Part shown: one piece after another, positions 14,299-59,415 of the stretch
Position numbering within the stretch: the stretch's first letter is position 1
How the letters are laid out: the number at the start of each line of letters is the position of its first letter
Source of the DNA: Tubiluchus corallicola
Lineage: Eukaryota; Priapulida; Priapulimorpha; Priapulimorphida; Tubiluchidae
Assembly (NCBI GenBank): GCA_030141605.1
Contig: JAQGDQ010000672.1
Coordinates: 1 to 64,000, forward strand
DNA length: 64,000 nucleotides
Reading direction: 5' to 3'
Made by a program: the position numbers and the translations under genes
The notes under the pieces: model-generated
Database searches by the model: none
Told to the model about the DNA's origin: nothing
What the model saw: the letters and a program-made list of their open reading frames with translations, nothing else

Positions 14299-14823
14299 TG
14301 TGCTTACACAGCAAAATCGTCCAAAAGTTGGCAGTTCGGCTTTTCTAGTTATTCAAAAAATCCTGAATCTCCATTTCATGAGGATCATTTTGATACCAAG
14401 TTCATCACTCTGTGTTAATTCTAAGCTGAGATAATCCACGTTGAAGTTGAGGTGCAGGCTGCACACTGAAAAACACAATCTTGAGAAAATTGATGTCAAA
14501 GTCAGCCATTGTTTTTTGTTCCACTTCTATAAAATGCTTAGCAAGCGCACAAATGTTGGTTGCTATGGACTTTGCAAGAACACATTGAAGTTACATTTAA
14601 ATCCAATAGATGGTTCTTCCAGACGAAGATTTGGACTTAGCAACACAAAAAACCCCAACCAAAGTGACCGTATATTTATTTATAAAGCCACCAATATTTT
14701 TAGCATTTTTTAATAAAAACCAAAAAATTAACATTCAACCAAATTTTGGTGCATTTTACTTTGAAGCGTCATAACATAGTTTCAACTATGCCAACTTATG
14801 GCAGGTTTTGGCTTACAAGCACA
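14299..14823. mobile_element. MITE, family C, copy 2
   Basis: Termini TGTGCTTACACAGCAAAA and TTTTGGCTTACAAGCACA, with an interior that follows 12645-13379 in order (shared CATGAGGATCATTTTGATAC and GAGATAATCCACGTTGAAGT blocks). It ends 80 bp from the stop codon of the zinc-finger gene and so lies in or next to its 3' UTR. Confidence 0.7.
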
Positions 14824-22093: not shown

Positions 22094-25000
22094 TCACCGT
22101 GATAATTCATGCAAATTTCTGGCAGTGGGCGTCTTCACTTCTACCACATCTACATCTAAAACCTTGGGCTTCTGTCTAGGTTGCCGATTGTTCACAGCAC
22201 AGGAAATGTTGTACAGAAGCCTCAGTGTATCAAGAGGAACTGTCAAGCCGCTAAGCTTCCCTGGCAACGAGTGAAAGTCAGCACGTTCCAATTGATCCTG
22301 ATGATACTTTCTAGGATTAATTCTGTGGAAGGTATCGTCCCGGCGCCAATACAGTCTCTCCATCAATATACAGAGACTCGCAAACGTCTTAAAGTCGATC
22401 GTGCTGTTTGGCAGAATCCCGATTAGATGAGCAGCCTTCTCCCAGGGCATGCTCCGCAGGACGTCCAGATACACTTCCTCAAGAGCCAACTTCACCAGCT
22501 TCTCTGACAAAGTTCCTAATTTTGCATCTTTAAATTTTGCAAAGCATTTGTACAGTTGAGCCTCTTTATGAGGGACAATTTTGCAATACTTCTTGACATA
22601 TTCCATTGGATTCAGAGATTCAAGTTCCCGAAGATCCATTGGCAACGTAAATCGGCTGGCATTTTGTTTCCAAGGTATTTCTTCCATGAGATACCGATTT
22701 AGTTCAATTCTTGAAGTTTTCTTACGTGCCCCCCGAAGAAGAGGGTCTCTGACCGACATCACTCTCTGCACGTGACTTCTGAAAGTTTTTTTAGAAAACT
22801 CTTCCAGTTTCTTTTGAATCAGCAATCGCGCTTTCTCTCTAGCTGCATCAGTGATGACCACTGGTCCCAGGTCAGCCAATTCTTCTTCAAAGAAATTCAT
22901 GACGCTGGTCTCGGCCATTTCAGACAAGATCAAGTCACGCAAGAATTCGTTTAGAACCTCTTCCATTAGCTGTTCTTTCATGCTCTCCGACCGTGCATGA
23001 AGAGCAGCAGAATCTATGCGTGGCACAAATACGAACGATTTAGATATTTCACTTGGTTTTTTCGACAACTCGCTTGATAATTTTGATAATTCGCTGCATG
23101 GTTTGCTTGAAACATAACTAGCGTATGGTGATGGTATCCAGGAAGGAGTTGGAAGTGATACAGTATCACGAGTAAGTGTCTTTTGCAACATCGGTTCATC
23201 AGCTGGCATACTCAATCTTCCATGCATTCTTTCTCTTGGCACAATACTTCGTTTCCACTCACCAGCTGCGACGTCTGTGACTTTTTCCTTGCGTACAGCT
23301 TCTTCAGATTTGGAAAGACTTACAGCAGCTGTCGGGTCAGAATATCCTCTAGGTAATAGAAAACTTTCGCTATCTCGTGCAGTTTTGAGTCTAATTGATT
23401 TGTCAGAGAAAGTCTTCAGAATTTTCGTACTTTTGCGGTCCATAAGAGTTTTGAAATCGATCGACTTTTCAGGAAAAATTCTACCTTTAGAAAACTCTGC
23501 ACCTATTTGGTCCAAAGCAGGTTTAGAAGTGATTTCTTCTTCAGTCAGTAATTGTGCAGGTGACAGTTTCTCCCTGACTCCTAAGTCCGGCAAATGTTCA
23601 TGCACATCAATGTCTCTATCCAATACTGCCTTTTCTCTTGATTCGATGCCAGGTCCTAATTCAACACCAGGAAGAGGTTTTTCTACCTTGTCCTTTTCTC
23701 TTAATTCAACACCAGTAAGAGGTTTTTCTACCTGGTCCTTTTCTCTTAATTCAACACCAGGAAGAGGTTTTTCTACCTGGTTCTTTTCTCTTAATTCAAC
23801 ATCAGGAAGAGGTTTTTCTACTTTGTCATTTTCTCTTGATTCAAGACCAGGAAGAGGTTTTTCTTCTTTGTCCTTTTCTCTTGATTCAACACCAGGAAGA
23901 GGTTTTTCTACTTTGTCTTTTTCTCTTGATTCAACACCAGGAAGAGGTTTTTCTACTTTGTCTTTTTCCATTGATTCAACACCAGGAAGAGGTTGTTCTA
24001 CTTTGCCTTTTTCTCTTGATTCAACACCAGGAAGAGGTTTTTCTACTTTGTCTTTTTCTCTTGATTCAACACCAGGAAGAGGTTTTTCTACTTTGTCTTT
24101 TTTTGCTACCTGGTAAAAGTCACGGTGCGATGCTAAATCTCTGTCAAGTTTACTTGGCTCTGAAATTGATACTGGTATCGTCTGTTCTTTTAACCACACT
24201 GAATCTTTCGGCAGGATTAGAGAGGCTTGTTCACCTGCTAATGCATCTTCAGCAACAGCTTTAGCAGGTCTTGATTCTTGTTCTTCCAAAGCTTTTATCA
24301 ATTTGTCCATTTGTTCAGGAGAGAGAGAAACTCCCGATACCACAGTAACACGTCCATACAGTTTTTTGAGCGTGTCAGTGTCTTCAGTAGCACCAGCACA
24401 AGTTTCAATGAAATCTTCAACTGGCATATGCAAAACGTGACCTGAAGGTGTGAGAATACCACCAGATGCAGTTTTTTGCAATTTTAAGGCAGCAGCCATA
24501 CATTCTCTATCAGATCCAGAATAAGTTTTAAGAAGATCATCAGCATACATTTCTTTTAACTCAGCAGCTGTTGGTATGAAATCTCTTATGGTGGGTGTAT
24601 AAATTTTCTCAAGATCTACACTTGAGGGAAGTAAGTGAGATGGACGAGGTGATGGAGTCTTTAGTGGATGATAACGCAAGTGCTTTCTGTCTTTCGTTGT
24701 TACGTAGGGTTTTAGGATGGTCCCAGATTGAGATATGAGATCCTGTTTAGGAATGGGCCCTTGACCTTTTTCTGGGAGAGGTTCTTCACCAGCTGGAGCA
24801 CTTATTTGCTCTTTCGTAATTTTTGTTGTCGGTTTTTCTTTAGTAACATCCGAGAAGAATTCTTCTTTCTTCCTACCTGGAAGACCCAAAAGGTCTTCTG
24901 TAGATCCTTCTAGTTTTGGCATAGCCTTCCACTTACTACTTAGGCGGTGCAAATGAGCTTCATGGACTTTTAGCGTAGGTCCTTTTGGCTTTTTATGAAT

Positions 25001-28000
25001 TTGCAAATGCTTATCGCGTTTTTTAGTTTTTGAAGTTGGTTTCACAACTTTCCGAGAAGGTCTGTGTGGAGAAGTTTCCAGTTTAGAAACTGCTTGAGAA
25101 GGAAGATGTGGAGAAACTTCAGGTTTTGTAACTGTTCGAGAAGGAAGGTGTGGAGAGGCTTTTCCAATGGCTAGAGAAGAAAGGTGAGGGGGAGGCTTTG
25201 GAGAAACATCGGTTCGATATTTTCCAATTTCTGGTAAAACTTCTTTTTCCTTCTCCTTCCTCCCTGGAAGCCCCAAATCAGTTTCCACAGACCTTTCTGG
25301 TTTTCGAATAGGCTTCCATTTACTGCTTGCACGATGCATGTGGACTTCTTTAGTTTTTAGGGAAGCTTTTCTTGCCTTTTCAAGATTTGGCAATTGTGGT
25401 TGATCTTTCTCAGCTTCTTCAAGAGCCTCTTGCTTCTCACCATCTGGTGGCAAAATGTCTTTTTCCTTCTGTGTTCTTTGACGAATTGGGGAGTACTTGT
25501 GATCTTTCTTAATTCTTGGAAGATGTTCTGATTTTTTGATAACTGGCGAAACCACTTCTTCAGTTTCAAAAACCTTTTCTGCGACCAATTCTTCAGTCTC
25601 TAAAGCTTTTTGTGGAACAATTTCTTCCGTCTTTAAAACCCTTTGTGGGCCTTCAACAGCTGGCAAATGTATGAGATCTTTTTGTATTTCTGGGAGAGAA
25701 GTCTGTTTCCTGATTAGTGGTGCAATTAGCTTTTTAGTCTTTGGGATGGGTCCCGAACATGACTTCCGAAGAAAGGGCAATCTAGTTCCAATTTTCTCAC
25801 TTTCTTGATTGGGTTCTTGTTTATAATCTGACGGAGAAACTGAGGCTGGAAAAGTTATGAGCTTTTGCAGACTTTCTGTGACACTAGGAGGCCCAACTGA
25901 AAAAGGCGCATAGTCTTCCTCACTTCCTGGAAACACTTGCTGCTGCTCAGAATCTTGAGTACTTATGAGAGGTTCAACATCTTTCGAGTAATCTTCTTGA
26001 ACTGAAAGTCCTGCAAAACTTTCTTCACTAGCTGGAGGACCTAGCCACTCTTTTTCGGTTTCCTGGTAATACTCCAGCTTATCACCTGGATAACTTTCCT
26101 CATCAGATTCAACAGGAGTAGTTTTTCTTTGATCCACCTTTGTTATAGAATGTCTCCTGATGAACTCGTCGAATGACATTTCCTTCATATGTACATCCTC
26201 AGCTATTTTTCTTACAAATGTCGTAGTGAGCGCTTGGCAGAATTTATCTCGTGGTACTCGTAAAATTTGTCCTTCAACGCAGATAAGAGTCAATTTTCTT
26301 TTAACTGGAATAACCCTTTTTGGACGAGGTGCCTGACGTTTGGGGAAAGGGTAATGTTTATGCACAAGTAGTGGTTTACACAAGAGAATATGTTTATGTG
26401 GTAGTTCTCTTCGTCGAGGAGGAACTTGCTGTTTACTTTGAAGAACTTTCTGCTGTCTTGCTTGCCATGCAGTTGACTTTTCAAAACGTGGTCGAAGTCC
26501 AAGTTTCTCTGCAGTCTTTAACTCTAGGCGAGGTATAAACCCAGTTTGCTGGGTGATTTCTAGTATAAGGTTTGCTATAATGTCAGCTTGCTGTGTGGAG
26601 GGCAGATTCAGATGTGGTAAAAGACTCACCCATTGAGCCAAATCTAGATCAATTTGTGGCACAAGGCCAGCAAGTTGTGCAACAGCCAGGTCAATTTTTG
26701 GTGCAAGTCCAGCTTGTTGTACAACTGCTAGATCGAGTTGTGGTGCAAGTCCAGTGTTTTGGGCAGCAGCCAAGTCAATTTCTGGCACGAGACCAGCTTG
26801 CTGTGCAGCAACAAATTCGACTGGAGGAACAAGTCCCGCTTGCTGTGCGGAAATCAGGGTAACCTGAGGCACAAGTCCAACTCGTTGTGCCACAGCCAGA
26901 TCAATTTTTGGTACAAAATCAGCGTCCAATGCTGCGGCTAGACTGACTCTTGGCACCAGTCCAGCTTGCTGTGCAGAAGCAAGACTAATTTGTGACACAA
27001 GTTCAGCTTGAGTCTTGCTTGGCAAAAGTTTAGCTTGTTCTGCAGCATGCAGATCCAGATGAGGCAAAAGACCGGCTTGCTGTGCGTCAACCAAGTCAAT
27101 TTCTGGCACCAAGTTGGCTTCTTGTGCTGCAGCCAAGTCAGTTCGTGGCACCAGTCCGAGTTGCTCTGCAGCAGACAGGTCAATTTCTGGCACCAAGTTG
27201 GCTTCTTGTGCTGCAGCCAAGTCAGTTCGTGGCACCAGTCCGAGTTGCTCTGCAGCAGACAGGTCAATTTCTGGCACCAAGTTGGCTTCTTGTGCTGCAG
27301 CCAAGTCAGTTCGTGGCACCAGTCCGAGTTGCTCTGCAGCAGACAGGTCAATTTCTGGCACCAAGTTGGCTTCTTGTGCTGCAGCCAAGTCAGTTCGTGG
27401 CACCAGTCCGAGTTGCTCTGCAGCAGACAGGTCAATTTGCGGCACAAGTTCAGCTTGCAATACGGCAGCTAGATCAATCTGTGGGACAAGTCCAGCTAGT
27501 TGTGCTTCAACTAGATCGATTTCCGGTATAAGGCCACATTGCTGTGCAGCAGCTAAATCTATTTGAGGTATAAGTCCAGCCTGCAATGCTGCAGTCACAT
27601 CAATTCGCGGCACAAGTCCGGCTTGCTGTGCAACACCCAGATCAATTTTAGGGACAAGTCCAGCTCGCTGTGCAGTCGCCAGGTCAATTATAGGCACAAG
27701 TCCAGTTTGCTGTGCAGTTGCCACATCAATTCTTTGTTCGGACTGGTAAATACTTGGGAGACCTGTAATAGAACTGTAGACCTGTTTCCATGAATATAAC
27801 CATTCGCCACGAAGGTAATAGTGCAGATTATAATCAAAGCACCTGGCATGCCCATCGAGCAAGCAGATATTTTTCAGCCAACGTTGATATGGTGATTTTT
27901 GTAATAAATTGCGTAATGGTGGTGCAGTTCTTGGTTGTATTGTGCGCCTTTGTATAACATGTTCAGGTTGCTTAGAATCAGATAATGTTTTTGGCCTTAG

Positions 28001-28273
28001 GCAGCCCTTCCTGATAAGACTGTAATATTTTCCTCGTCTACGCACAAAACTGCGACGTATAGAGTAATGAGCTGGTTTTTTGAAGTTTGTCTGTATAACT
28101 AAGTTTGGCAGCTCTCTTCCTTTGGCAGCTTCAGGAAGCTGTGACAATGGTTTTACAGGAGCCAATCTCTCTTCTGGAGACCTGCCTCTTGTACACTTCA
28201 CCGTCTTGTTCGCCTTTTGCTGCTGCTTCTCATCCTGTTGATCAATAGCCTTCCTTTTGCGCCATTTTGCCAT
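22094..28273 (-). CDS. Large uncharacterised repeat protein, 2059 residues
   Basis: One uninterrupted 6.2-kb frame. The N-terminus is basic (KWRKRK, lysine/glutamine-rich). Residues about 181-604 consist of some thirty 14-residue repeats with consensus IDLAxAQxAGLVPx. Residues about 610-1390 are charged and low complexity, with repeated segments such as HLPSR and VHxHRxSSKWKxxxK. Residues about 1388-1544 hold ten or so 15-residue repeats of the type EKDKVEKPLPGVESR. The C-terminus (about 1740-2050) looks folded: EF-hand-like helices with poor calcium loops around residues 1900-1990 (FAKFKDAKLGTLSEKL, then IDFKTFASLCILMERLYWRR). No signal peptide or membrane segment. The family was not recognised; a structural or cytoskeletal role is only a guess. 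Such a long intact frame with repeat-coded variation is very likely a real gene. Confidence 0.85.
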   Translation of the reverse strand: MAKWRKRKAIDQQDEKQQQKANKTVKCTRGRSPEERLAPVKPLSQLPEAAKGRELPNLVIQTNFKKPAHYSIRRSFVRRRGKYYSLIRKGCLRPKTLSDSKQPEHVIQRRTIQPRTAPPLRNLLQKSPYQRWLKNICLLDGHARCFDYNLHYYLRGEWLYSWKQVYSSITGLPSIYQSEQRIDVATAQQTGLVPIIDLATAQRAGLVPKIDLGVAQQAGLVPRIDVTAALQAGLIPQIDLAAAQQCGLIPEIDLVEAQLAGLVPQIDLAAVLQAELVPQIDLSAAEQLGLVPRTDLAAAQEANLVPEIDLSAAEQLGLVPRTDLAAAQEANLVPEIDLSAAEQLGLVPRTDLAAAQEANLVPEIDLSAAEQLGLVPRTDLAAAQEANLVPEIDLVDAQQAGLLPHLDLHAAEQAKLLPSKTQAELVSQISLASAQQAGLVPRVSLAAALDADFVPKIDLAVAQRVGLVPQVTLISAQQAGLVPPVEFVAAQQAGLVPEIDLAAAQNTGLAPQLDLAVVQQAGLAPKIDLAVAQLAGLVPQIDLDLAQWVSLLPHLNLPSTQQADIIANLILEITQQTGFIPRLELKTAEKLGLRPRFEKSTAWQARQQKVLQSKQQVPPRRRELPHKHILLCKPLLVHKHYPFPKRQAPRPKRVIPVKRKLTLICVEGQILRVPRDKFCQALTTTFVRKIAEDVHMKEMSFDEFIRRHSITKVDQRKTTPVESDEESYPGDKLEYYQETEKEWLGPPASEESFAGLSVQEDYSKDVEPLISTQDSEQQQVFPGSEEDYAPFSVGPPSVTESLQKLITFPASVSPSDYKQEPNQESEKIGTRLPFLRKSCSGPIPKTKKLIAPLIRKQTSLPEIQKDLIHLPAVEGPQRVLKTEEIVPQKALETEELVAEKVFETEEVVSPVIKKSEHLPRIKKDHKYSPIRQRTQKEKDILPPDGEKQEALEEAEKDQPQLPNLEKARKASLKTKEVHMHRASSKWKPIRKPERSVETDLGLPGRKEKEKEVLPEIGKYRTDVSPKPPPHLSSLAIGKASPHLPSRTVTKPEVSPHLPSQAVSKLETSPHRPSRKVVKPTSKTKKRDKHLQIHKKPKGPTLKVHEAHLHRLSSKWKAMPKLEGSTEDLLGLPGRKKEEFFSDVTKEKPTTKITKEQISAPAGEEPLPEKGQGPIPKQDLISQSGTILKPYVTTKDRKHLRYHPLKTPSPRPSHLLPSSVDLEKIYTPTIRDFIPTAAELKEMYADDLLKTYSGSDRECMAAALKLQKTASGGILTPSGHVLHMPVEDFIETCAGATEDTDTLKKLYGRVTVVSGVSLSPEQMDKLIKALEEQESRPAKAVAEDALAGEQASLILPKDSVWLKEQTIPVSISEPSKLDRDLASHRDFYQVAKKDKVEKPLPGVESREKDKVEKPLPGVESREKGKVEQPLPGVESMEKDKVEKPLPGVESREKDKVEKPLPGVESREKDKEEKPLPGLESRENDKVEKPLPDVELREKNQVEKPLPGVELREKDQVEKPLTGVELREKDKVEKPLPGVELGPGIESREKAVLDRDIDVHEHLPDLGVREKLSPAQLLTEEEITSKPALDQIGAEFSKGRIFPEKSIDFKTLMDRKSTKILKTFSDKSIRLKTARDSESFLLPRGYSDPTAAVSLSKSEEAVRKEKVTDVAAGEWKRSIVPRERMHGRLSMPADEPMLQKTLTRDTVSLPTPSWIPSPYASYVSSKPCSELSKLSSELSKKPSEISKSFVFVPRIDSAALHARSESMKEQLMEEVLNEFLRDLILSEMAETSVMNFFEEELADLGPVVITDAAREKARLLIQKKLEEFSKKTFRSHVQRVMSVRDPLLRGARKKTSRIELNRYLMEEIPWKQNASRFTLPMDLRELESLNPMEYVKKYCKIVPHKEAQLYKCFAKFKDAKLGTLSEKLVKLALEEVYLDVLRSMPWEKAAHLIGILPNSTIDFKTFASLCILMERLYWRRDDTFHRINPRKYHQDQLERADFHSLPGKLSGLTVPLDTLRLLYNISCAVNNRQPRQKPKVLDVDVVEVKTPTARNLHELSR
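23640..24110 (-). repeat. 45-bp in-frame coding repeat, about 10 copies
   Basis: Each 45-bp unit codes 15 residues of the large protein (DKVEKPLPGVESREK type). Being a multiple of three, copy-number change keeps the frame. Units at the outer side differ (VELREK, PLTGV), while the central ones are near-identical. Confidence 0.9.
27090..27440 (-). repeat. 84-bp in-frame coding repeat, four near-identical copies
   Basis: Four 84-bp units, each coding a pair of 14-residue repeats (IDLSAAEQLGLVPR and TDLAAAQEANLVPE), are almost identical at DNA level. The flanking 14-residue repeats have diverged. This marks a recent expansion inside the older array. Confidence 0.9.
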
Positions 28274-28424
28274 TTCTGATCTCTGCTGCGTACCAGAAAA
28301 TCAAATTTATTTGAAACTTCTGATATCGTCATGACAACACTTTAACATAGAAACAGTAAAACAAAATTTCTGAATGACACAAAATATTGTATGTCTGATG
28401 AGAAACCATCCACAGCGATGAATG

Positions 28425-28455: not shown

Positions 28456-28739
28456 GCGTACAATTTTTGAGTAAGGATGTGTGGTAAGTTAAAACTCATT
28501 AAAAAAAGAAAATCAAAATACTAATCCTTTCTTAAACGAATGAACCTTTCTACAGACTTTATACCGGTATCATTTTAACAGTTTATATTGAAATTATTTT
28601 GGATACTTTCAAATTTCAAATTTTAAGTGAGTGGTCTGTGTATGTGTATAATATGATGGAGCTGTATGTTTTACAGTCTCCCGTCTTCAACATTTGCAGC
28701 AGTTTTTTACTAAAATCACGAAAGCTAGAAACAGTGCTG

Positions 28740-29776
28740 AAAACGAAAATACAAAATTATGAAAGGTAGGGACAATGCTGGAAACGAAAATACAAAATTA
28801 TGAAAGGTAGGGACAATGCTGGAAACGAAAATACAAAATTATGAAAGGTAGGGACAATGCTGGAAACGAAAATACAAATCATGAAAGGTAGGGACAATGC
28901 TGAAAACGAAAATACAAAATTATGAAAGGTAGGGACAATGCTGGAAAGGAAAATACAAATCATGAAAGGTAGGGACAATGCTGGAAAGGAAAATACAAAT
29001 CATGAAAGGTAGGGACAATGCTGGAAAGGAAAATACAAATCATGAAAGGTAGGGACATGCTGGAAAGGAAAATACAAATCATGAAAGGTAGGGACAATGC
29101 TGGAAACGAAAATACAAATCATGAAATGCAGAAATAGTGCTGGAAACGAAAATACAAATCATGAAAGGTAGGGACAATGCTGGAAATGAAAATACAAATC
29201 ATGAAATGCAGAAATAGTGCTGGAAACGAAAATACAAATCATGAAAGGTAGGGACAATGCTGGAAAGGAAAATACAAATCATGAAAGGCAGGGACAATGC
29301 TAGAAACGAAAATACAAATCATGAAAGGTAGGGACAATGCTGGAAAGGAAAATACAAATCATGAAAGGTAGGGACAATGCTGGAAAGGAAAATACAAATC
29401 ATGAAAGGTAGGGACAATGCTGGAAAGGAAAATACAAATCATGAAAGGTAGGGACAATGCTGGAAACGAAAATACAAATCATGAAATGCAGAAATAGTGC
29501 TGGAAACGAAAATACAAATCATGAAAGGTAGGGACAATGCTGGAAACGAAAATACAAATCATGAAATGCAGAAATAGTGCTGGAAACAAAAATACAAATC
29601 ATGAAAGGTAGGGACAATGCTGGAAAGGAAAATACAAATCATGAAAGGTAGGGACAATGCTAGAAACGAAAATACAAATCATGAAAGGTAGGGACAATGC
29701 TGGAAACGAAAATACAAATCATGAAAGGTAGGGGACAATGCTGGAAACGAAAATATAAATCATGAAAGGTAGGGAC
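28740..29776. repeat. 40-bp minisatellite with variant units, about 26 copies
   Basis: The unit of about 40 bp is built on CATGAAAGGTAGGGACAATG and CTGGAAAGGAAAATACAAAT. A second unit type carrying ATGCAGAAATAGTGCTGG appears at about 29122, 29202, 29482 and 29562, giving a higher-order pattern. The array starts about 470 bp upstream of the large gene's ATG. Confidence 0.9.
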
Positions 29777-32190
29777 AATTTTATTTTTTAATTCTGCTTT
29801 CTTCTGTTTTAAGTACAATAAGCAACATTATTATAGCAAACAGAAAAAGTATCTTTATATGCAGCTTATCTTTTACTCATTTTGCTTAAACACTCACTTT
29901 CACGTAAAGCTGAACATGCTGCTGTCAGTCAACCATTTGATTGTCATATTGCATTGTAGCGCCGCCTACTGGGAAAAAATTGTAGTACTTTAATAACATA
30001 ACTTGTACTAAAATTGAAATGATTTACAATTGCTTATGCTCACTGTGCCACCTGTTGCCAAATGTACCAGGGGCCGAGACCATAGACTCTAAATATCTGA
30101 GGCGGTAATAAGTTAAATTGGTTGAAATGATTATAATAACTACGGCAAAATAATTAATAATAATTCATGGTTTTTGTTTAATAACAAGCAACTTTAATCC
30201 AAAAAACTTTTGAAACATGTTGAAACTGATAAATCTTCCAATTATGATGTCATTATTGTTGCTTACAGTTCATTCCAGAGTGTTAGTTTTAGTGACAAAT
30301 ATCCTATAATTGTAAAAAAACATCATTTGTTAATAGCTGTCACTATCATTGTTACAACGAACCTGTAATTTACTTAGAAAGCGACACAATTTTTAGTTGA
30401 ACAAGCTTACGCGCCTTGAAACAAATTAGCAATCTATCATGCCACATTAAACATGTAGTGAAGCACCATATGAAGAATTAGCAAGAAGTCCAGCTTTGTG
30501 CATTTGTTGTTGCTGCCATCATTTTCTGTTGAATTGCAATAAACATTGATCTCTCCATCTGCTATTCAGATTTTGACAGCTCATTGAGACAAAATAGTCA
30601 CACATGTTTTTTGTATAAAAATTATCTTATTCGATCATTAATCTAGTGGTATATAAAAATTTATGTTCAGACAAAAGTAAGCAGAAACCCACGGTCGTGT
30701 TTACGTCTGACTATACCTGGTCAGGTGTGGTAAACTCATGTCAATACTTGTAGACTATTACGCTCAAGCATGACTAACCAATGTGCACGACACTAGCAAC
30801 TAATTTGAAATTTCGTGACTCTGGTTTTTGAGTTACTTAATGCTACAACTTGAGCGGTAAAGCCATTTGCATTAATTTTCACATTTCGGCTCCTGTTTCG
30901 GTTGATGTTTTTTATTTTTTTATGCTTTTACATCTACACCTTTGTCTCGGCCCATACATTGCAGGTGTCTATCCTACAGATTTCATCATTCTAGACTTCT
31001 CCATTTCGCAGAATTAAAATAAAAAGTTGTTGCCTAGTAACTGATAAAAGATACGTGTCAAAGATTCTCCTAGATTTTTCAGATCTAGCACTTTTAGGTT
31101 ATTGTTCCAATTTTTTTATCATCTTTATTACAGCTTTATCCTAAAAATAAGTTTACCATTAGAAATAGTAAATTAGTTAGGCCTTTTTTTATTATTTATT
31201 ATTGCCAATTTCACGATTGTTTTGATTACAATTATTACCAAAAAAATCATTAGACAGCCAATATTTTTTTATTTAATTAAACTGTTTTATTGACGGATTA
31301 ACAAGTGACCAAACAGAAATAATCAGCTTCCTGCAACTTTTAAAGGCATTACAAATGTTAACGCAACACACAGTAACTCAAAGCAAAATTAAAAAGAACG
31401 CAAAGCAATAATTTCTTTAAACGATAAGGTGGACAACCAATTTAAAAACGGTTTGAAAAAAGATTACTGCTGGTTGCAGTTAACAAAAAGTTACAGTTAA
31501 GAAATTCGCATTCAACGTTTTCTAATTACACGATTTAGCCTAGATAATTATAATCTATATAGCATCAACAATGTCTACATATGTACAATAATTATAAAAA
31601 TATTATAATAAGTTATGTTACATTTGCTAAAAGTGTTTCAAATACAAAACGGCAGACGTATTTCCGACATGCTAAAATTGCTACACAACCGATAACAGCA
31701 GAACAAAAAATAAAGTCTTACCCACCATTACATGAAGATGCAGTAACTAAAACAGTTACTCTACCATTACACGAAGCAGCAGTAACTAAAACAGTTACTC
31801 TACAGAGCAATACTTACACATAGCAAAATTTATTAAATTTTGAAGCTAAATAATAGCTACGAAACATTTAAAACCTTCTAGGACATGCTTGGCACTACAA
31901 ACGAAAACGAGAGATGCGGGAAATCTTTGAAAGTAAAAGACCGAAAAGCATTTGTGAAGAGAGTCGTGCAAGTTTGCAATAACCATACTTGACGAATATT
32001 TTTACGAAAAACTTGTCGTGTTTATCTAACAGGCAACAAAAAGGTTTACAATAACACACAGATAACAAAGAATTTGCACATTGCACACTCTAAACATAAA
32101 TGACGCGTGATCTCTCATATTTGCAGGAAGATTCATGAATGAGTGGTAGACAAAACCTCTTAAATTACAATCGATGTACAGGAAAGTGAC
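29777..32190. other. Intergenic stretch, no recognised gene
   Basis: AT-rich. The only structure noted is a short duplication at about 31724-31803, where GCAGTAACTAAAACAGTTAC occurs twice, each copy holding the inverted pair GTAACT/AGTTAC. No coding pattern I can support. Confidence 0.5.
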
Positions 32191-33299: not shown

Positions 33300-33420
33300 T
33301 CAGAATGACGTTAGGCTCATGCTCCGATTCACCTTCCTGCCGACTACGCGAGACTGTCGCTCTATGGGCTGCGTTACCGCCACGCCTCTCACGTACAACG
33401 CCTCGGCTTGCTTCAGCTGC
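33300..33420 (-). CDS. wee1: wee1 last coding exon
   Basis: Acceptor TTTTTGCAG above 33420; the split codon AG|G joins from the exon at 36142. It encodes QLKQAEALYVRGVAVTQ, then VVGRKVNRSMSLTSF and a TGA stop. The basic KKMNRS-like ending is conserved at the Wee1 C-terminus. Confidence 0.9.
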
Positions 33421-35985: not shown

Positions 35986-36141
35986 AAGAGTTTTTTCCTG
36001 TGACTTTATTACGGGTCACCTTGTAACCCCCCCCAAAGCTTCCCGTTTCTGAAAAGACCGTATATCGTGGATTTCCTTAACCCTAACACACTAACACCAT
36101 TTACGGTAAAAAGCAATTAGCTCTGACACCACTACACCTAC

Positions 36142-36287
36142 CTGGCCAATAACTGGTTCTTAAATCGTTCTGCGTTCAGTTCCTTCCTCAATTGCGCTTT
36201 CGACTTCTCCGCGTTTGGGCAGAGTACGGGATGGTAACACAGGACGGCGGCAGACGGTCGACAAGACGCGTCAGGCTGTATCATAGA
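36142..36287 (-). CDS. wee1: wee1 exon, end of kinase domain
   Basis: 146 nt, phase 0 in and phase 2 out, between acceptor TTTTTAG and donor GTAGGT. It encodes SMIQPDASCRPSAAVL, the kinase subdomain XI with its invariant Arg, and then KAQLRKELNAERFKNQLLA, the conserved helical segment that follows the Wee1 kinase domain. Confidence 0.9.
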
Positions 36288-37666: not shown

Positions 37667-37774
37667 CTTTAACAAGTTTTGAAACTTTTCCGAATAGACT
37701 GGCAAGTATGGCAACTCCCCACTCCTTATACGATGCCACTCAGGTCCATTTTTTGGCAACGAACACCCGCTAGC
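37667..37774 (-). CDS. wee1: wee1 exon, kinase C-lobe
   Basis: 108 nt, phase 0 at both ends, between acceptor TTTTTTCAG and donor GTAAGT. It encodes ASGCSLPKNGPEWHRIRSGE, PYLPVYSEKF and QNLLK, matching the Wee1 segment of the LPRNGDQWHEIRQGRLPRIP type in vertebrates. Confidence 0.9.
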
Positions 37775-38365: not shown

Positions 38366-38625
38366 CGCTTCAAATATGGTTAAACCTAGAGCAAATATGT
38401 CCGCCTTTGGCAAGTGGACGAAATCCTCCTGTAAGATTTCATTCGGCATGTAGCGACAATCCCCCTCCTCGACCCGGGGATTCGTCGACGACGTCACGTG
38501 ACCGAGATCACCAATTTTGTACACTACTCCTCCAAGGTCATCGTCGTCGTCGTCGACATCATCCATCACGCTGTCGTCGTGGTCGTTCTGGCTCGGTTTC
38601 TTGTTATGGACAATAAAGACGTTTC
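38366..38625 (-). CDS. wee1: wee1 exon, activation segment
   Basis: 260 nt, phase 1 in (completing the Gly of KPGN) and phase 0 out. It encodes [13 protein letters not shown], an acidic Asp-rich insert ([10 protein letters not shown]), [11 protein letters not shown] with the DLG motif typical of Wee1/Myt1, [14 protein letters not shown] (the Wee1 EGD signature) and [14 protein letters not shown]. Acceptor TTCTTGACAG, donor GTTAGT. Confidence 0.92.
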
Positions 38626-39044
38626 CTGTCAAGAAAAAGTGCCGAATCTAGAGACCGAAACGTAGCTTACAGACACTAAATCTACAAATTACAAGATCAG
38701 ACGCGTAAAAATGAAGCGTGAGGGCGCTACGTTCAAAAAATACAACAAACAATGCATGATTGTTAAAGGACAAGGCAACTCTTTACGTGCGTGAAGCTGA
38801 AAAAATTGTCTTGAAATTTTTATGTCACTTACGTGCTGCCCTATTGCATACGGAGTTTCCTAGTTGTAATTGAACATTTTAATTAGGTGCTGCCATCTAT
38901 GAACTAATCCTGTTACTCTACCAGCTACTTACCCCCAGTATAATTGTACGGTGCATTCACTGGATCTCTCCCTACTATTAAGTAATAGTGAAGCCTGTCT
39001 GCATAAGTCACCTATACCTACATATACTGACTGGTTTTGCTCTC

Positions 39045-39300
39045 CAGTCACTCTCTAACTCTCAGTGTTCAATGCAGGACACTCTCACTCTCAGTGTTCA
39101 GTGCAGGACACTCTCACTCTCAGTGTTCAGTGCAGGACACTCTCACTCTCAGTGTTCAGTGCAGGACACTCTCACTCTCAGTGTTCAGTGCAGGACACTC
39201 TCACTCTCTAACTCTCAGTGTTCAGTGCAGGACACTCTCACTCTCTAACTCTCAGTGTTCAGTGCAGGACACTCTCACTCTCAGTGTTCAATGCAGCAGC
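39045..39300. repeat. 29-bp minisatellite, about 8 copies
   Basis: The unit contains CAGTGTTCAGTGCAGGACAC then TCTCACTCT. Two units carry an extra CTCTAA. It lies in the wee1 intron between the exons at 38625 and 40991. Confidence 0.9.
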
Positions 39301-39520
39301 CATGCTACTCATGTGTCTTTAGTTAATAAACACTTTTCTGTTTGTGCAGTGCAAATATGTATTATACATTTTTTATTCTTGTTCTACAAGTGAGTGATCT
39401 ACAACGTTCAACATGACTTTAACAATTTTAATATTGTAGTATGCTTGTAGAAAAACTGACCAAAGCACTTTGTCGTAAATTTTGTTTTTTAGTTTGTGAT
39501 CTATGGATCGTCACGATCCG

Positions 39521-41040
39521 TACTTCAAGTCCTACCTGGTTTTACATCAAGATGGACTAGATTCATTGAATGAATGTACTTCAAGTCCTACCTGGTTTTA
39601 TATCAAGATGGACTAGATTCATTGAGTGAATGTACTTCAAGTCCTACCTGGTTTTACATCAAGATGGACTAGATTCATTGAATGAATGTACTTCAAGTCC
39701 TACCTGGTTTTATATCAAGATGGACTAGATTCATTCAGTGAATGTACTTCAAGCCCTACCTGGTTTTACATCAAGATGGACTAGATTCATTGCATGAATG
39801 TATTTCAAGTCCTACCTGGTTTTACATCAAGATGGACTAGATTCATTGAGTGAATGTACTTCAAATCCTACCTGGTTTTACATCAAGATGGACTAGATTC
39901 ATTGAATGAATGTACTTCAAGCCCTACCTGGTTTTATATCAAGATGGACTAGATTCATTGAATGAATGTACTTCAAGTCCTACCTGGTTTTACATCAAGA
40001 TGGAATAGATTCATTGAATGAATGTACTTCAAGTCCTACCTGGTTTTATATCAAGATGGACTAGATTCATTGAATGAATGTACTTCAAGTCCTACCTGGT
40101 TTTACATCAAGATGGACTAGATTCATTGAGTGAATGTACTTCAAATCCTACCTGGTTTTACATCAAGATGGACTAGATTCATTGCATGAATGTACTTCAA
40201 GTCCTACCTGGTTTTACATCAAGATGGACTAGATTCATTGAGTGAATGTACTTCAAATCCTACCTGGTTTTACATCAAGATGGAATAGATTCATTGAGTG
40301 AATGTACTTCAAATCCTACCTGGTTTTACATCAAGATGGACTAGATTCATTGAGTGAATGTACTTCAAGTCCTATCTGGTTTTACATCAAGATGGAATAG
40401 ATTCATTGAATGAATGTATTTCAAGTCCTACCTGGTTTTACATCAAGATGGAATAGATTCATTGAATGAATGTACTTCAAGTCCTACCTGGTTTTATATC
40501 AAGATGGAATAGATTCATTGAGTGAATGTACTTCAAGTCCTACCTGGTTTTACATCAAGATGGACTAGATTCATTGAGTGAATGTACTTCAAATCCTACC
40601 TGGTTTTACATCAAGATGGAATAGATTCATTGAATGAATGTACTTCAAGTCCACCTGGTTTTATATCAAGATGGACTAGATTCATTGAATGAACATACTT
40701 CAAGTCCTACCTGGTTTTATATCAAGATGGACTAGATTCATTGAATGAACATACTTCAAGTCCTACCTGGTTTTATATCAAGATGGACTAGATTCATTGC
40801 ATGAATGTACTTCAAGTCCTACCTGGTTTTATATCAAGATGGACTAGATTCATTGAATGAATGTACTTCAAGCCCTACCTGGTTTTACATCAAGATGGAC
40901 TAGATTCATTGCATGAATGTACTTCAAGCCCTACCTGGTTTTATATCAAGATGGACTAGATTCATTGCATGAATGTACTTCAAGTCCTACCTGGTTTTAT
41001 GTCAAGATGGACTAGATTCATTGAATGAATGTACTTCAAG
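39521..41040 (-). repeat. 56-bp minisatellite made of the wee1 exon end plus its splice donor, about 27 copies
   Basis: On the wee1 (minus) strand each unit is 50 nt of coding-type sequence (L-K-Y-I-H-S-M-N-L-V-H-L-D-I-K-P plus one G) followed by GTAGGA. The right-most unit, 41040-40985, is the real end of the exon at 40991-41137 and the first six intron bases. The other copies run head to tail into the intron as far as 39521. Units differ by a few substitutions (ATA/ACA, GTC/TTC, TCA/TGC). See the first finding. Confidence 0.95.
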
Positions 41041-41137
41041 CCCTGAGCAAGCTGCATTGTGATCACCTTTAGCTGATGTTCTGGGAAGGTTTTCTTCGTC
41101 CTGACATTGTCGGCTATCACATCTTGGAGGCTGCCAC
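40991..41137 (-). CDS. wee1: wee1 exon, up to the catalytic loop
   Basis: 147 nt, phase 1 to phase 1, between acceptor TTTTTCTCAG and donor GTAGGA. It encodes GSLQDVIADNVRTKK, then LKVITMQLAQGLKYIHSM and NLVHLDIKPG, the catalytic loop with the HxDIKPxN motif of Wee1. The last codon completes as GGA with the exon at 38625, giving LDIKPGNVFIV. Its last 50 nt are the founder of the 56-bp array that fills the next part of the intron. Confidence 0.92.
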
Positions 41138-42519: not shown

Positions 42520-42641
42520 CATTACAGTATTCATTCTGAATGAGCATGTGGTCGTCTTCCGCCCAGGCTGAGTAGTAACGCACTACGTGCCGGTGCTTCC
42601 CCAAGACAGCGTGAGCGTACACTTCATTTAGCGCATTCTGC
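42520..42641 (-). CDS. wee1: wee1 exon, kinase N-lobe, part 2
   Basis: 122 nt, phase 2 in and phase 1 out, between acceptor CACATTGCAG and donor GTAAGT. It encodes [33 protein letters not shown] and IQNEYCNG. The [17 protein letters not shown] stretch is a near-invariant Wee1 signature. Confidence 0.93.
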
Positions 42642-43628: not shown

Positions 43629-43798
43629 TCATAGATGCTGCCAGCAACAGGCTTGACGGAACGTTTGATGGCATACGTGCACCCATCCAGCCGGTTGATG
43701 CATTTAAACACGCTACCGAATTCTCCCTTCCCGATTCGACACACTTCCAGAAATTCTTCATTGTAACGGGAAATGTTATTCTCTCGTAAGGCTATCTT
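43629..43798 (-). CDS. wee1: wee1 exon, start of kinase domain
   Basis: 170 nt, phase 0 in and phase 2 out, between acceptor TTTTTGCAG and donor GTAAGT. It encodes KIALRENNISRYNEEF, then LEVCRIGKGEFGSVFKC (glycine-rich loop) and DGCTYAIKRSVKPVAGS with the ATP-binding lysine in AIK. It joins in frame to QNALNEV of the next exon. Confidence 0.92.
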
Positions 43799-45849: not shown

Positions 45850-46567
45850 ACATATATATATATATATATATATACATACATACATATTAATTCTTTATTT
45901 GTCATTAAAATGGTCCACTCATTATAAAAAAATTGAGTAATCCTCAGCATAATGTTAAGATAACAACACTGTTCTAGACAAATGCGTCCAGTGCATACTA
46001 AAAAAACTAAAGTGCAAAGCTAAGGCCTAATTATATACAATAAATGAACATATTTACAAATACCATATTAAAATATTTTTACAAAACAATATTACAAAAG
46101 TGTATTAAATTTTACATGACATATTTTACACTATATATACATCTGACATTACAAAACTAACATAACATGTATTACATTACATAATTTTTTTTAAAAAATT
46201 TTACATTTTTAATCATTTTATGGAGTCAGGGGCGGGGGTGGATGAAAGTTGAGTCTGTGTAATTAGTAGCAGATGCACAATGTGGAAGTTGAAACCTGTT
46301 ATATTGATATTGTTTTAATTTCTTTTTAAAGTGGTGGAGAGATTCTATTTGTTTTATTTCACTGGGTAGTAAGTTCCATAAATGTATGGCCTGTTTTGAT
46401 ATAGAGTTATTTCCAAATTTATTGTTTACTGTATGTAGAGTGAGTGTACATACCTTGCAGGGGTGAAAAACTAACTCTTCTTCTTCATCGCTCATTAGTA
46501 CGTCATCATAGCTTCTGAAATAGTAATCAAAAATTAAGTTAATTACCTGCCAAGCAGTGATGGGCAA
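45850..46567 (-). mobile_element. Truncated CR1/L2-like LINE 3' end
   Basis: The minus-strand frame 46567-46226 ends with NNKFGNNSISKQAIHLWNLL, then SEIKQIESLHHFKKKLKQ, the C-terminal module typical of CR1/L2-type ORF2 proteins. It is followed by a 375-bp 3' UTR ending in a (TA)n tail at 45850-45880. The 3' UTR matches 13440-13948. Inserted in the largest wee1 intron, in the gene's orientation. Confidence 0.75.
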
Positions 46568-53690: not shown

Positions 53691-54357
53691 GCACTAAAGT
53701 TTTTTAATTCACTAAATTACAAAAAAGTCTGCATAATTTATGAATTTAATCATATTAAAATTTACAAAATTCGATAATTTAAGTTTAATTATAATACTGC
53801 AATACCCACAAACACGTAACATCCACCATTAATAAATTTTATAATCTTCAAAATTAAAAATATTCATATTTCATTGTATTCTTGATTAGGGCTGATTCAT
53901 TGGATGGTTACTTTTGGTTCCCAATTACTTTTACTAATAGTCACTAATAAAATTATTAAACAGCTGCTCGGAACACGTTCAGCAATTTATTTTACGTACA
54001 ACTGAGCTAGTATTTATATGGGCAATTCTACAAAAAACGTTATAATTTTGTAAAAAACCTGGCCTAAAAATAATAAAATTAATTATACTGAAAAGTACGG
54101 ATATTACTTTAATTAGTATTATTAGCCGCAGTAATTTACGATAGCCAGAATTTATTGTCTAAAACTTCAAAAGTAATTAAGTTAATTATAATGAAACGTA
54201 CAGTTATCACTTTAATTATTTTTAAGTTAATGAGCAATCAGTATGCGTAGTTCATCCTAGCAACCAGAGCATACGTCAGTAATACTAACTATAGTAACGG
54301 TGTAGCCTACTGTACTTACAAAGTAATTTAAATGCTAAGATTTCACAATTTCCCTAC

Positions 54358-54623
54358 CGTGCAGAAAGCCTTGATTTTCTTGGACTTTTAATAAACGAGA
54401 AGTTTCTAGATACGTTGTTATGTCTGTCATTTTCTAAGTATTCCATAGATGTATCCAAATCTGTCCCGGAACTGATTGAAAACGCTGTATCATTGGGTCC
54501 ATCTTGGAAACCAGGGTCTGCGTCTTCTTCCTCATCGGAAAAGCTCAACCTTTGGACGATCTCATCTTCTTCGTAACCATCAGAACCCAAGTGAAATTCA
54601 TCTTGTCGTCTGAATAAAGACAT
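54358..54623 (-). CDS. wee1: wee1 first coding exon
   Basis: ATG at 54623 gives MSLFRRQDEFHLGSDGYEED, then an acidic segment VQRLSFSDEEEDADPGF, as expected for the N-terminal regulatory region with possible degron-type and casein kinase sites. Donor GTAGGG leaves a CG|A split Arg codon that joins the exon at 53096. An ATG 39 nt upstream in frame (54662) is possible, but the conserved-looking sequence starts at 54623. Confidence 0.8.
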
Positions 54624-55285
54624 GATGCACTTGTTGAAAGTACTTCGTGCAACTAGTAGCACACCGTGTAGGTATAAATCGACTAAACGTAATCAAACAC
54701 ACAGCGATAAACATTGCTAAACCACGCCGCAATCTTTTTAACGTGGCGCGACCGTTGGTCACATGATAGTAGGCAACCAATCGCGGCGTAGTTGCTGACG
54801 TCAGTATTTACTTTACGAGGCGCTTCGTAAAACTGGTTTTGTCGGATATTTCTAGCCGGCTTAGCATGTTTACGTTGTTATTGTTTCAGATTTACAAAAG
54901 CAGTAATCGAGATTTCTACTTAGATCATTACTGTAGCTAAAGGTGGCTGCGCTAATAAAAGAACTTTAGCGAATAAGTCAAAACTTTAGAAAATAAATGA
55001 TGACAACTTATAAAATTACTATGTACCTAGTTTTACGACAACACGCGGGAAAATTTGGCGGGAACGTGGCTCTTCGCGTGGCTTGTGACGCTATAGTGTT
55101 TGCGTGGGAGCACGTATGAAATCCAGGGCCGAATTACAGCGTCTCACTTTCGCCCGTCCCAGTTATATATTTTAATTATATACGTATTGCACTAAGAGTG
55201 CCACTGTGCAACCCAGAAATACACCGTTTTATAGTAATGCAACTAACTACAGTATGTCTTAAGAAATCGACATAATGTTGATTAT
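54624..55285. other. wee1 5' flank
   Basis: Presumed promoter and 5' UTR of the minus-strand wee1 gene. No TATA box or other firm element was identified. Confidence 0.4.
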
Positions 55286-56973: not shown

Positions 56974-58160
56974 CGTGTTTATTGAGGTTCAACCTATTTT
57001 ACAACTTCACAGGTAAAATTACAGGTAAGTTCACATAGGTGCTGCCACCTACATGTTAAGACCAAAAACGTGTTTATTGAGGTTCAACCTAATTTACAAC
57101 TTCACAGGTAAAATTACAGGTAAGTTCACATAGGTGCTGCCACCTACATGTTAAGACCAGAAACGTGTTTATTGAGGTTCAACCTAATTTACAACTTCAC
57201 AGGTAAAATTACAGGTAAGTTCACATAGGTGCTGCCACCTACATGTTAAGACCAGAAACGTGTTTATTGAGGTTCAACCTAATTTACAACTTCACAAGTA
57301 AAATTGCAGGTAAGTTCACATAGGTGCTGCCACCTACATGTTAAGACCAGAAACGTGTTTATTGAGGTTCAACCTAATTTACAACTTTACAGGTAAAATT
57401 ACAGGTAAGTTCACATAGGTGCTGCCACCTACATGTTAAGACCAGAAACGTGTTTATTGAGGTTCAACCTAATTTACAACTTCACAAGTAAAATTGCAGG
57501 TAAGTTCACATAGGTACTGCCACCTACATGTTAAGACCAGAAACGTGTTTATTGAGGTTCAACCTAATTTACAACTTCACAGGTAAAATTACAGGTAAGT
57601 TCACATAGGTGCTGCCACCTACATGTTAAGACCAGAAACGTGTTTATTGAGGTTCAACCTAATTTACAACTTCACAAGTAAAATTGCAGGTAAGTTCACA
57701 TAGGTGCTGCCACCTACATGTTAAGACCAGAAACGTGTTTATTGAGGTTCAACCTAATTTACAACTTCACAGGTAAAATTACAGGTAAGTTCACATAGGT
57801 GCTGCCACCTACATGTTAAGACCAGAAACGTGTTTATTGAGGTTCAACCTAATTTACAACTTCACAAGTAAAATTGCAGGTAAGTTGTAGTTCACATAGG
57901 TGCTGCCACCTACATGTTAAGACCAGAAACGTGTTTATTGAGGTTCAACCTAATTTACAACTTCACAAGTAAAATTGCAGGTAAGTTCACATAGGTGCTG
58001 CCACCTACATGTTAAGACCAGAAACGTGTTTATTGAGGTTCAACCTAATTTACAACTTCACAGGTAAAATTACAGGTAAGTTCACATAGGTGCTGCCATC
58101 TAAATGTTAAGACCAGAAACGTGTTTGTTGAGGTTCAACCTAATTTACAACTTCAACTAC
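56974..58160. repeat. 95-bp minisatellite with splice-site-like motifs, about 12 copies
   Basis: Units hold GTGTTTATTGAGGTTCAACC, TTTACAACTTCACAGGTAAA, ATTACAGGTAAGTTCACATA and GGTGCTGCCACCTACATG. Units alternate between variants (CACAGGTAAAATTACAG and CACAAGTAAAATTGCAG). Every unit carries a consensus donor CAG|GTAAGT on the plus strand. Confidence 0.95.
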
Positions 58161-58169
58161 AACTTACAA

Positions 58170-59415
58170 CTGGTGCCATAGAGTATGCTGCCAGTTGCTA
58201 AGACTCCAGTTGTTCTCAGATGCATGCATCCCAAGCCTGTAGATACACTTGGAACTGGAGGCATAGAGTATGCTGCCAGTTGCCAAGACTCCAGTTGTTC
58301 TCAGTTGCTTTGCATCGAAAGCCTGCAGATACACTTGGAACTGGTGGCATAGAGTATGCTGCCAGTTGCCAAGACTCCAGTTGTTGTCAGTTGCTTTGCA
58401 TCGAAAGCCTGCAGATACACTTGGAACTGGTGGCATAGAGTATGCTGCCAGTTGCCAAGACTCCAGTTGTTCTCAGTTGCTTTGCATCGCAAACCTTGAG
58501 ATACACTTGGAACGTGTGCCATAGAGTATGCTGCCAGTTGCCAAGACTCCAGTTGTTCTCAGTTTGCTTTGCATCGCAAGCCTGGAGATACACTTGGAAC
58601 TGGTGGCATAGAGTATGCTGCCAGTTGCCAAGACTCCAGTTGTTCTCAGTTGCATTGCATCGAAAGCCTGCAGATACACTTGGAACTGGTGGCATAGAGT
58701 ATGCTGCCAGTTGCCAAGACTCCAGTTGTTCTCAGTTGCTTTGCATCCCAAGCCTGCAGATACACTTGGAACTGGTGGCATAGAGTACGCTGCCAGTTGC
58801 CAAGACTCCAGTTGTTCTCAGTTGCTTTGCATCGCAAGCCTGCAGATACACTTGGAACTGGTGGCATAGAGTATGCTGCCAGTTGCCAAGACTCCAGTTG
58901 TTCTCAGTTGCTTTGCATCGCAAGCCTGCAGATACACTTGGAACTGGTGCCATAGAGTATGCTGCCAGTTGCCAAGACTCCAGTTGTTCTCAGTTGCTTT
59001 GCATCGCAAGCCTGTAGATACACTTGGAACTGGTGCCATAACGTATGCTGCCAGTTGCTAAGACTCCAGTTGCTCTCAGTTGCTTTGCATTGCAAGCCTG
59101 CAGATACACTTGGAACTGGTGCCATAGAGTATGCTGCCAGTTGCCAAGACTCCAGTTGTTCTCAGTTGCTTTGCATCCCAAGCCTGCAGATACACTTGGA
59201 ACTGGTGCCATAGAGTATGCTGCCAGTTGCCAAGACTCCAGTTGTTCTCAGTTGCTTTGCATCGCAAGTCTGAAGATACACTTGGAACTGGTGCCATAGA
59301 GTATGCTGCCAGTTGTTCTCAGTTGCTTTGCATTGCAAGCCTGCAGATACAGTTGAAACTGGTGTCATAGAGTATGCTGCCAGTTGTTCTCAGTTGCTTT
59401 GCATCACAAGGTCGA
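58170..59415. repeat. 86-bp minisatellite, about 14 copies
   Basis: Units hold TAGAGTATGCTGCCAGTTGC, CAAGACTCCAGTTGTTCTCA and CTGCAGATACACTTGGAACT. The last two units are shortened. It abuts the 95-bp array. Long open frames on both strands arise because 86 is not a multiple of three and the unit has few stops; they are not gene evidence. Confidence 0.95.

Follow-up and report, generated by a model that had tools for sequence, protein, structure and literature searches.

How does a gene keep its protein intact when one of its exon-intron junctions, splice donor included, has been copied many times over into the intron that follows? This question is raised by a 56-bp tandem array on the minus strand of the window (the whole stretch of 64,000 nucleotides of contig JAQGDQ010000672.1 from the priapulid Tubiluchus corallicola that was analysed), in a gene that the first-pass annotation had called wee1.

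The identity of the gene was borne out. Five exons, all with AG acceptor and GT donor, were spliced into an open frame of 268 aa, the kinase domain, which matched human Wee1 with 345 bits (E=1.5e-102) and Myt1 with 116 bits, and which is nearer to Wee1 than to Myt1 or other kinases. The best match in the protein database was the wee1-like kinase of Priapulus caudatus (73% identical). Two more exons, collinear to the C-terminus, were found in tblastn with the Priapulus caudatus wee1-like protein (P0001). The frame is intact and spliceable across the intron with the array and on to the C-terminus, five exons being translated and the two C-terminal ones added by collinearity with P0001. A DNA search of the 343.5-Mb genome with the exon next to the array scored at least one place, the wee1 locus.

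All exons lie on the minus strand. An upstream exon at 46454–46514 (SYDDVLMSDEEEELVFHPCK) was placed by eye against P0001, with its boundaries set by eye from AG and GT. The exons at 43629–43797, with the glycine-rich loop GKGEFGSV, and at 42520–42641 come from the spliced frame and tblastn. The exon of 147 nt at 40991–41137, assigned from the frame and the match to human Wee1, encodes ...GLKYIHSMNLVHLDIKPG with the catalytic loop. It is followed by the exon at 38366–38625 (...KIGDLGHV...; spliced frame, human Wee1 match and tblastn) and by that at 37667–37774 (spliced frame and tblastn). The exon at 36141–36287 (SMIQPDASCRPSA...) starts at an AG and takes its end from tblastn. The last coding part, 33300–33420, was started by eye at TTTTTTGCAG, where tblastn extended to 33449, and ends in the conserved ...VGRKVNRSMSLTSF and a stop. 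An open frame at 54354–54692 on the same strand (MSLFRRQDEFHLGSDGYEEDEIVQRLSFSDEEE...), without Pfam match, may by eye be an N-terminal exon of wee1.

The array lies in the intron at 38626–40990 (2365 nt, phase 1, from the spliced frame) and joins exon 40991–41137 at its donor; a real exon-intron junction of wee1 has been amplified, as the first-pass annotation had held. TRF placed the array at 39520–41044, with period 56, 27.2 copies and 95% matches. A unit repeats the final 50 nt of the exon and ends in GTAGGN. In the phase chosen earlier, the first one comprises these 50 nt in the exon itself and GTAGGA, the latter being the 5′ splice site at 40985–40990 (CAG|GTAGGA). The statement that the array starts exactly at the junction did not hold, as the TRF array overlaps the exon by 54 nt and the phase of the unit is arbitrary; the first repeat copy is the last 50–54 nt of the exon. 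Cut in phase, the array shows, after the exon copy, 25 units of 56 bp and one of 55, or 26 in all, and then an incomplete last unit. The donor CAG|GT, and with it a donor consensus in the unit, is kept in 25 of the 26 intron-side units. The remaining unit reads CAG|ATAGG; in another, which is among the 25, the donor is damaged by the loss of a base (CAG|GTGGAC). A second minisatellite, with a 29-bp unit in about 8 copies (TRF), lies in the same intron at 39053–39296, minus strand; the donor motif was looked for in it and none was found.

Which of these donors has to be used can be predicted from the frame. The donor at 40990 appears to be the right one by frame and homology, as the spliced frame is open and the match to human Wee1 runs across the junction; by the same evidence, the own donor of the exon would be the first unit of the array. 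Reading through this donor gives KPGRT and a stop, as claimed earlier and confirmed by the frame. When each of the 25 later donors was joined to the next exons, the identical end GLKYIHSMNLVHLDIKPGRT-stop (...HLDIKPGRT-stop) was obtained every time. An intact kinase is thus predicted to need the first donor, and this dependence, the main inference of the first-pass annotation, is sound on the evidence of frame and homology. A coding role of the array itself was rejected because stops fill all three gene-strand frames (50–51 in each). Gain of the intron by tandem AG|GT duplication would leave copies of the duplicated segment at both intron ends, and the 3′ end (TTTTTCTTGACAG|GAAAC at 38626) is no repeat copy.

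The alignment of the units with the exon, proposed earlier as a check, was carried out. It agrees with the unit as exon end plus GTAGGN and shows that every one of the 26 intron-side units departs from the exon copy, the closest at 1 of 56 positions. Exon and units differ by 1 to 6 bases (mean 3.8), and the units among themselves by 2.9. There are 12 variable columns across the 26 units and 18 distinct units. Distances between units showed no clear rise with lag, and hence no gradient of homogenisation (2.7 at lag 1; 3.2, 3.5, 2.9 and 3.4 at lags 9–12). At one Asp codon the exon has GAC and all 26 units have GAT. Gene conversion from array to exon, which had been suggested to rewrite codons of the catalytic loop, was therefore rejected as a recent event: the difference is synonymous and would not be preserved by selection at the protein level, which makes recent conversion across this site unlikely. 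Together with the distances, the fixed difference indicates that the units mixed among themselves while the exon site was not recently exchanged with them.

The first-pass annotation knew of no described case of a catalytic-loop exon edge turned into a minisatellite. A minisatellite with multiple splice donors in human IFI6 was reportedly described by Turri, Cuin and Porter in 1995. IFI6 reportedly resembles the wee1 array in that units each carry a donor and adjoin an exon whose own donor is the first. The two differ in the unit, which is 12 bp long and almost only donor in IFI6 and in wee1 56 bp long with 50 nt of conserved coding sequence, and in that later donors would truncate the wee1 product. 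Minisatellites of this type would be expected to be polymorphic in copy number; the wee1 array was seen at one locus of one assembly. Introns born from tandem duplication of splice-site segments were reportedly described by Zhuo et al. in 2007, and a tandem duplication that copies a splice-site segment is reportedly what these cases and that of a potato RdRp have in common with wee1. In them a coding duplication becomes an intron, whereas the wee1 intron already existed and received amplified copies of its own boundary. For the potato RdRp, an intron from tandem splice-site duplication is reported (PMC4974935). For human IFI6 (6-16, G1P3), downstream repeat units are reported to serve as donors (PMC4526556), whereas in wee1 any use of later donors is putative. 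Internal tandem repeats at exon-intron boundaries in human segmental duplications were described by De Grassi and Ciccarelli in 2009 (PMC2812944). These also cross exon-intron boundaries and may form new introns or alternative splice forms; their differences in repeat number lie between paralogs and have transcript support, whereas wee1 is one gene locus known from genome sequence alone. Titles and abstract openings in the literature yielded no splice-donor minisatellite of wee1 or of a kinase. Within that search the wee1 case is undescribed, but it is less singular than claimed, given IFI6 and the further cases in the same genome described below. The wee1 array thus belongs to a kind that has been described before, though seemingly seldom. 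Two features appear to be new: how much conserved coding sequence each unit holds, and that such arrays recur within one genome.

Triples of the donor CAGGTARG with gaps of 15–45 were found at 878 places genome-wide, and the reversed control at 146. The 5′ flank was read for all six donor arrays among the matches listed, in contig order: two begin at an exon supported by homology, one at an open frame, and three have an unsupported flank. Together with wee1, the starting locus, there are three homology-supported exon-seeded cases. In contig C5, perfect-donor triples with 33-bp units lie between 114037 and the first donor, at 115594, and the array begins at the donor of an 82-nt PDCL3-like exon. 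This exon and the next one (L024) gave a 76-aa query, of which residues 2–76 match phosducin-like protein 3 (PDCL3; E=1.8e-20); the first exon alone matches the same protein at chance level (E=5.7). The unit is about 26 nt of the exon end, with mismatches, plus GTAAGTG. In contig C53, an array of 24-bp units at 178068–178364 starts at an exon ...SFETQLMQ|GTAAGT and holds about 11 nt of the exon end in its unit. The exon, without PDB or Pfam match, matches over 65 aa the protein P0121, the translation of a 1262-bp contig and not a proven transcript (58/65 identical, E=9e-27); P0121 continues ...LMQ|DDPPP where the genome has the donor.

The third array (C58, 50-bp unit) follows directly on an open frame of 58 aa, which reaches to the first donor and of which about 22 nt recur in the unit. 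This frame had no match in Pfam, NCBIfam or the protein database; its sole matches were weak ones to filamin (E=0.024). No exon is seen in the 5′ flanks of the arrays in C7 and at C53:2257, and none with support in that of C23. The flank of the C53:2257 array (L021) resembles by eye window positions 14435–14713 and is therefore probably an interspersed repeat. The wee1 array is less singular than had been held, since at least two other genes carry exon-end donor arrays; in this genome, it seems, repeat arrays can arise from splice donors time and again.

The strength of the donor effect was estimated from counts of triples, which are not counts of arrays and which include dispersed families; satellites of such families inflate the donor count. 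For CAGGTAAG with gaps of 24–45 there were 361+211=572 triples, against 59 for the reversed control. The motif CAGTAAGG, which is matched in dinucleotides but lacks AGGT, gave 45 triples, in 15 arrays. With gaps of 28–40 the counts were 274 and 39 (reversed), and with gaps of 46–75, which include multiples of shorter units, 654 and 73. A narrower donor search, with gaps of 15–23, yielded 169 triples and 21 for the reversed control; 15-bp satellites account for a large share. The acceptor-like TTTYNCAGG with gaps of 22–44 gave 171 triples against 136 reversed. Outside arrays, CAGGTAAG occurred 5 times and CAGTAAGG 2 times in 142 kb. In a Poisson estimate that rests on contig numbers and not on bases, and is a guide only, 5 donor arrays in C1–C105 compare with 0.67 expected from the 15 control arrays (P 0.0006), or with 1.7 expected when motif frequency is allowed for (P 0.03). 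The first control motif, CAAGGTAG (92 matches, 14 arrays), is itself donor-like (AAG|GTAG) and was therefore replaced by CAGTAAGG. The 5′ flank was read for 10 of its 14 arrays, and in one, in C480 (L029), an open frame runs to the array; by eye this frame is FN3-like (EKPVVQSQSTDYFTITWKEAHYKAR, 48 aa) and ends near a 33-bp array with AAG|GTAG units, a possible further case. A coding-potential score from codon use was dropped as too weak, because it gave wee1 a value of 4.2 when the 90th percentile of 494 AGGT sites was 7.4.

Within the window a donor is present per unit in 3 of 16 arrays, and the wee1 array is the only one that adjoins a recognised exon. At 28713–29779 a 40-bp array of 26.6 copies has 21 donor motifs (AAAG|GTAGGG) on the plus strand, with a 76-aa open frame to the first motif. 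Two minisatellites lie nearly back to back at 56974–58155 (95 bp) and 58168–59410 (86 bp); the former has 12 donor motifs on the plus strand and no open frame of more than 17 codons before the first. The 2068-aa open frame at 22094–28300 (minus strand), with no Pfam match at E 0.01, contains in-frame repeats of 42/84 and 45 bp, periods divisible by three.

Could these numbers arise otherwise? The excess might come from a few dispersed satellite families with CAGGTAAG, the three exon-seeded cases being unconnected accidents in a genome rich in minisatellites. Satellites of 15 bp resembling GTAAGTTTGGTACAG by eye do carry CAGGTAAG on at least four contigs, and a 44-bp step common to arrays on four contigs hints at another dispersed family. 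Tandem arrays (period at least 10, at least 4 copies) make up 17.4% of the window and 0–10% of nine other stretches (one shares 4 kb with the window), and the donor motif was found in 0 of 11 arrays of those stretches (one of them a window array seen twice). These data fit such an origin, but 2 of the 6 donor arrays among the matches listed start at homology-supported exon ends and the excess is specific to donors, and we consider it a rather unlikely account. The dispersed satellites close to GTAAGTTTGGTACAG, of 15 or 30 bp and with a consensus donor in many units, lie in at least C507, C557, C676 and C823. That the wee1 array was made or lengthened by the assembler is hardly credible: the contig is one of 115 kb in an assembly of 2344 contigs, which would fit an artefact, but the variable columns and distinct units among the 26, and the unique sequence on both sides of the array, argue against it.

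Two further readings would give the repeated donors a task. The tract could be functional, its 25 extra U1-binding sites competing with the true donor or shielding the intron from early polyadenylation, and be selected to tune wee1, as had been suggested. Besides the retention of CAG|GT and the genome-wide excess of donor arrays, its six donor columns in wee1 contain 2 minority cells in 156, against 46 in 1300 elsewhere. Of four other arrays, three have a donor motif that varies less than the remaining sequence (per site 0.000 vs 0.043 in 6 units, 0.011 vs 0.034 in 11 and 0.000 vs 0.071 in 4), and all 42 units of the four keep GT. In the largest, C5 (21 units), however, the donor changes more (0.042) than the rest (0.017). 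Taken column by column, the donor in wee1 shows no greater constancy than the rest (2/6 vary vs 10/50), two units are damaged, and young homogenised arrays keep every column anyway. Because the four arrays were picked by a search for perfect donors, which favours conserved ones, selection of this kind is held to be improbable. The array might instead be a ladder of recursive splice sites, the intron being removed in steps of 56 nt at the CAG|GT of each unit, and each splice from the true donor to the AG of a unit restoring the same junction of exon and donor. The 26 junctions AAACCAG|RT are in register one unit apart and, given how the units are built, the exon end would be the same after any excision within the array. 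But the repeated AG has no preceding pyrimidine tract, an intron of 56 nt is very short, and acceptor-like arrays show almost no excess; we regard recursive splicing as very improbable.

The explanation that we favour, and think probable, is that these arrays are tolerated minisatellites spanning a donor, whose copies all fall in the intron as the first donor is used. In wee1, a tandem duplication would have joined the last 50 nt of the exon and the first six intron bases to themselves, as the structure of the unit suggests, and slippage or unequal exchange may then have grown the array to 26 intron-side units. After a duplication across an exon-intron boundary, the added copies would lie downstream of the true donor. 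Provided that this donor is used, every further copy would be intron and the protein would stay the same, so that arrays could grow, and the wee1 array would persist for this reason. A repeat across an acceptor or inside an exon would be expected to alter the mRNA, copies of an acceptor providing extra AGs and exon starts before the exon. Such a filter of tolerance would explain the at least two other donor-seeded genes, and the excess of tandem donor motifs as against hardly any of tandem acceptor-like motifs. Choice among duplicated equal donors does not always fall on the upstream one, so that a certain amount of splicing from the second or third unit is likely, giving a truncated frame and probably decay. 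As judged from the frame, leaky use of later donors would lead to a premature stop and to lower wee1 output, with no new protein.

The wider proposal that 5′ splice sites of this lineage are recurrent birthplaces of minisatellites, in dozens of genes and with acceptors not affected, so that introns begin with ladders of decoy donors of which the first must be chosen reliably, is possible and put forward tentatively. With 25 near-identical competing donors and a full kinase that is required, wee1 is a natural case in which to test how the spliceosome picks one of several equal 5′ splice sites. Should arrays seeded at donors, but not those seeded at acceptors, prove to recur across the genome, they would directly measure which duplications of splice sites can be tolerated and would offer a way for introns to grow.
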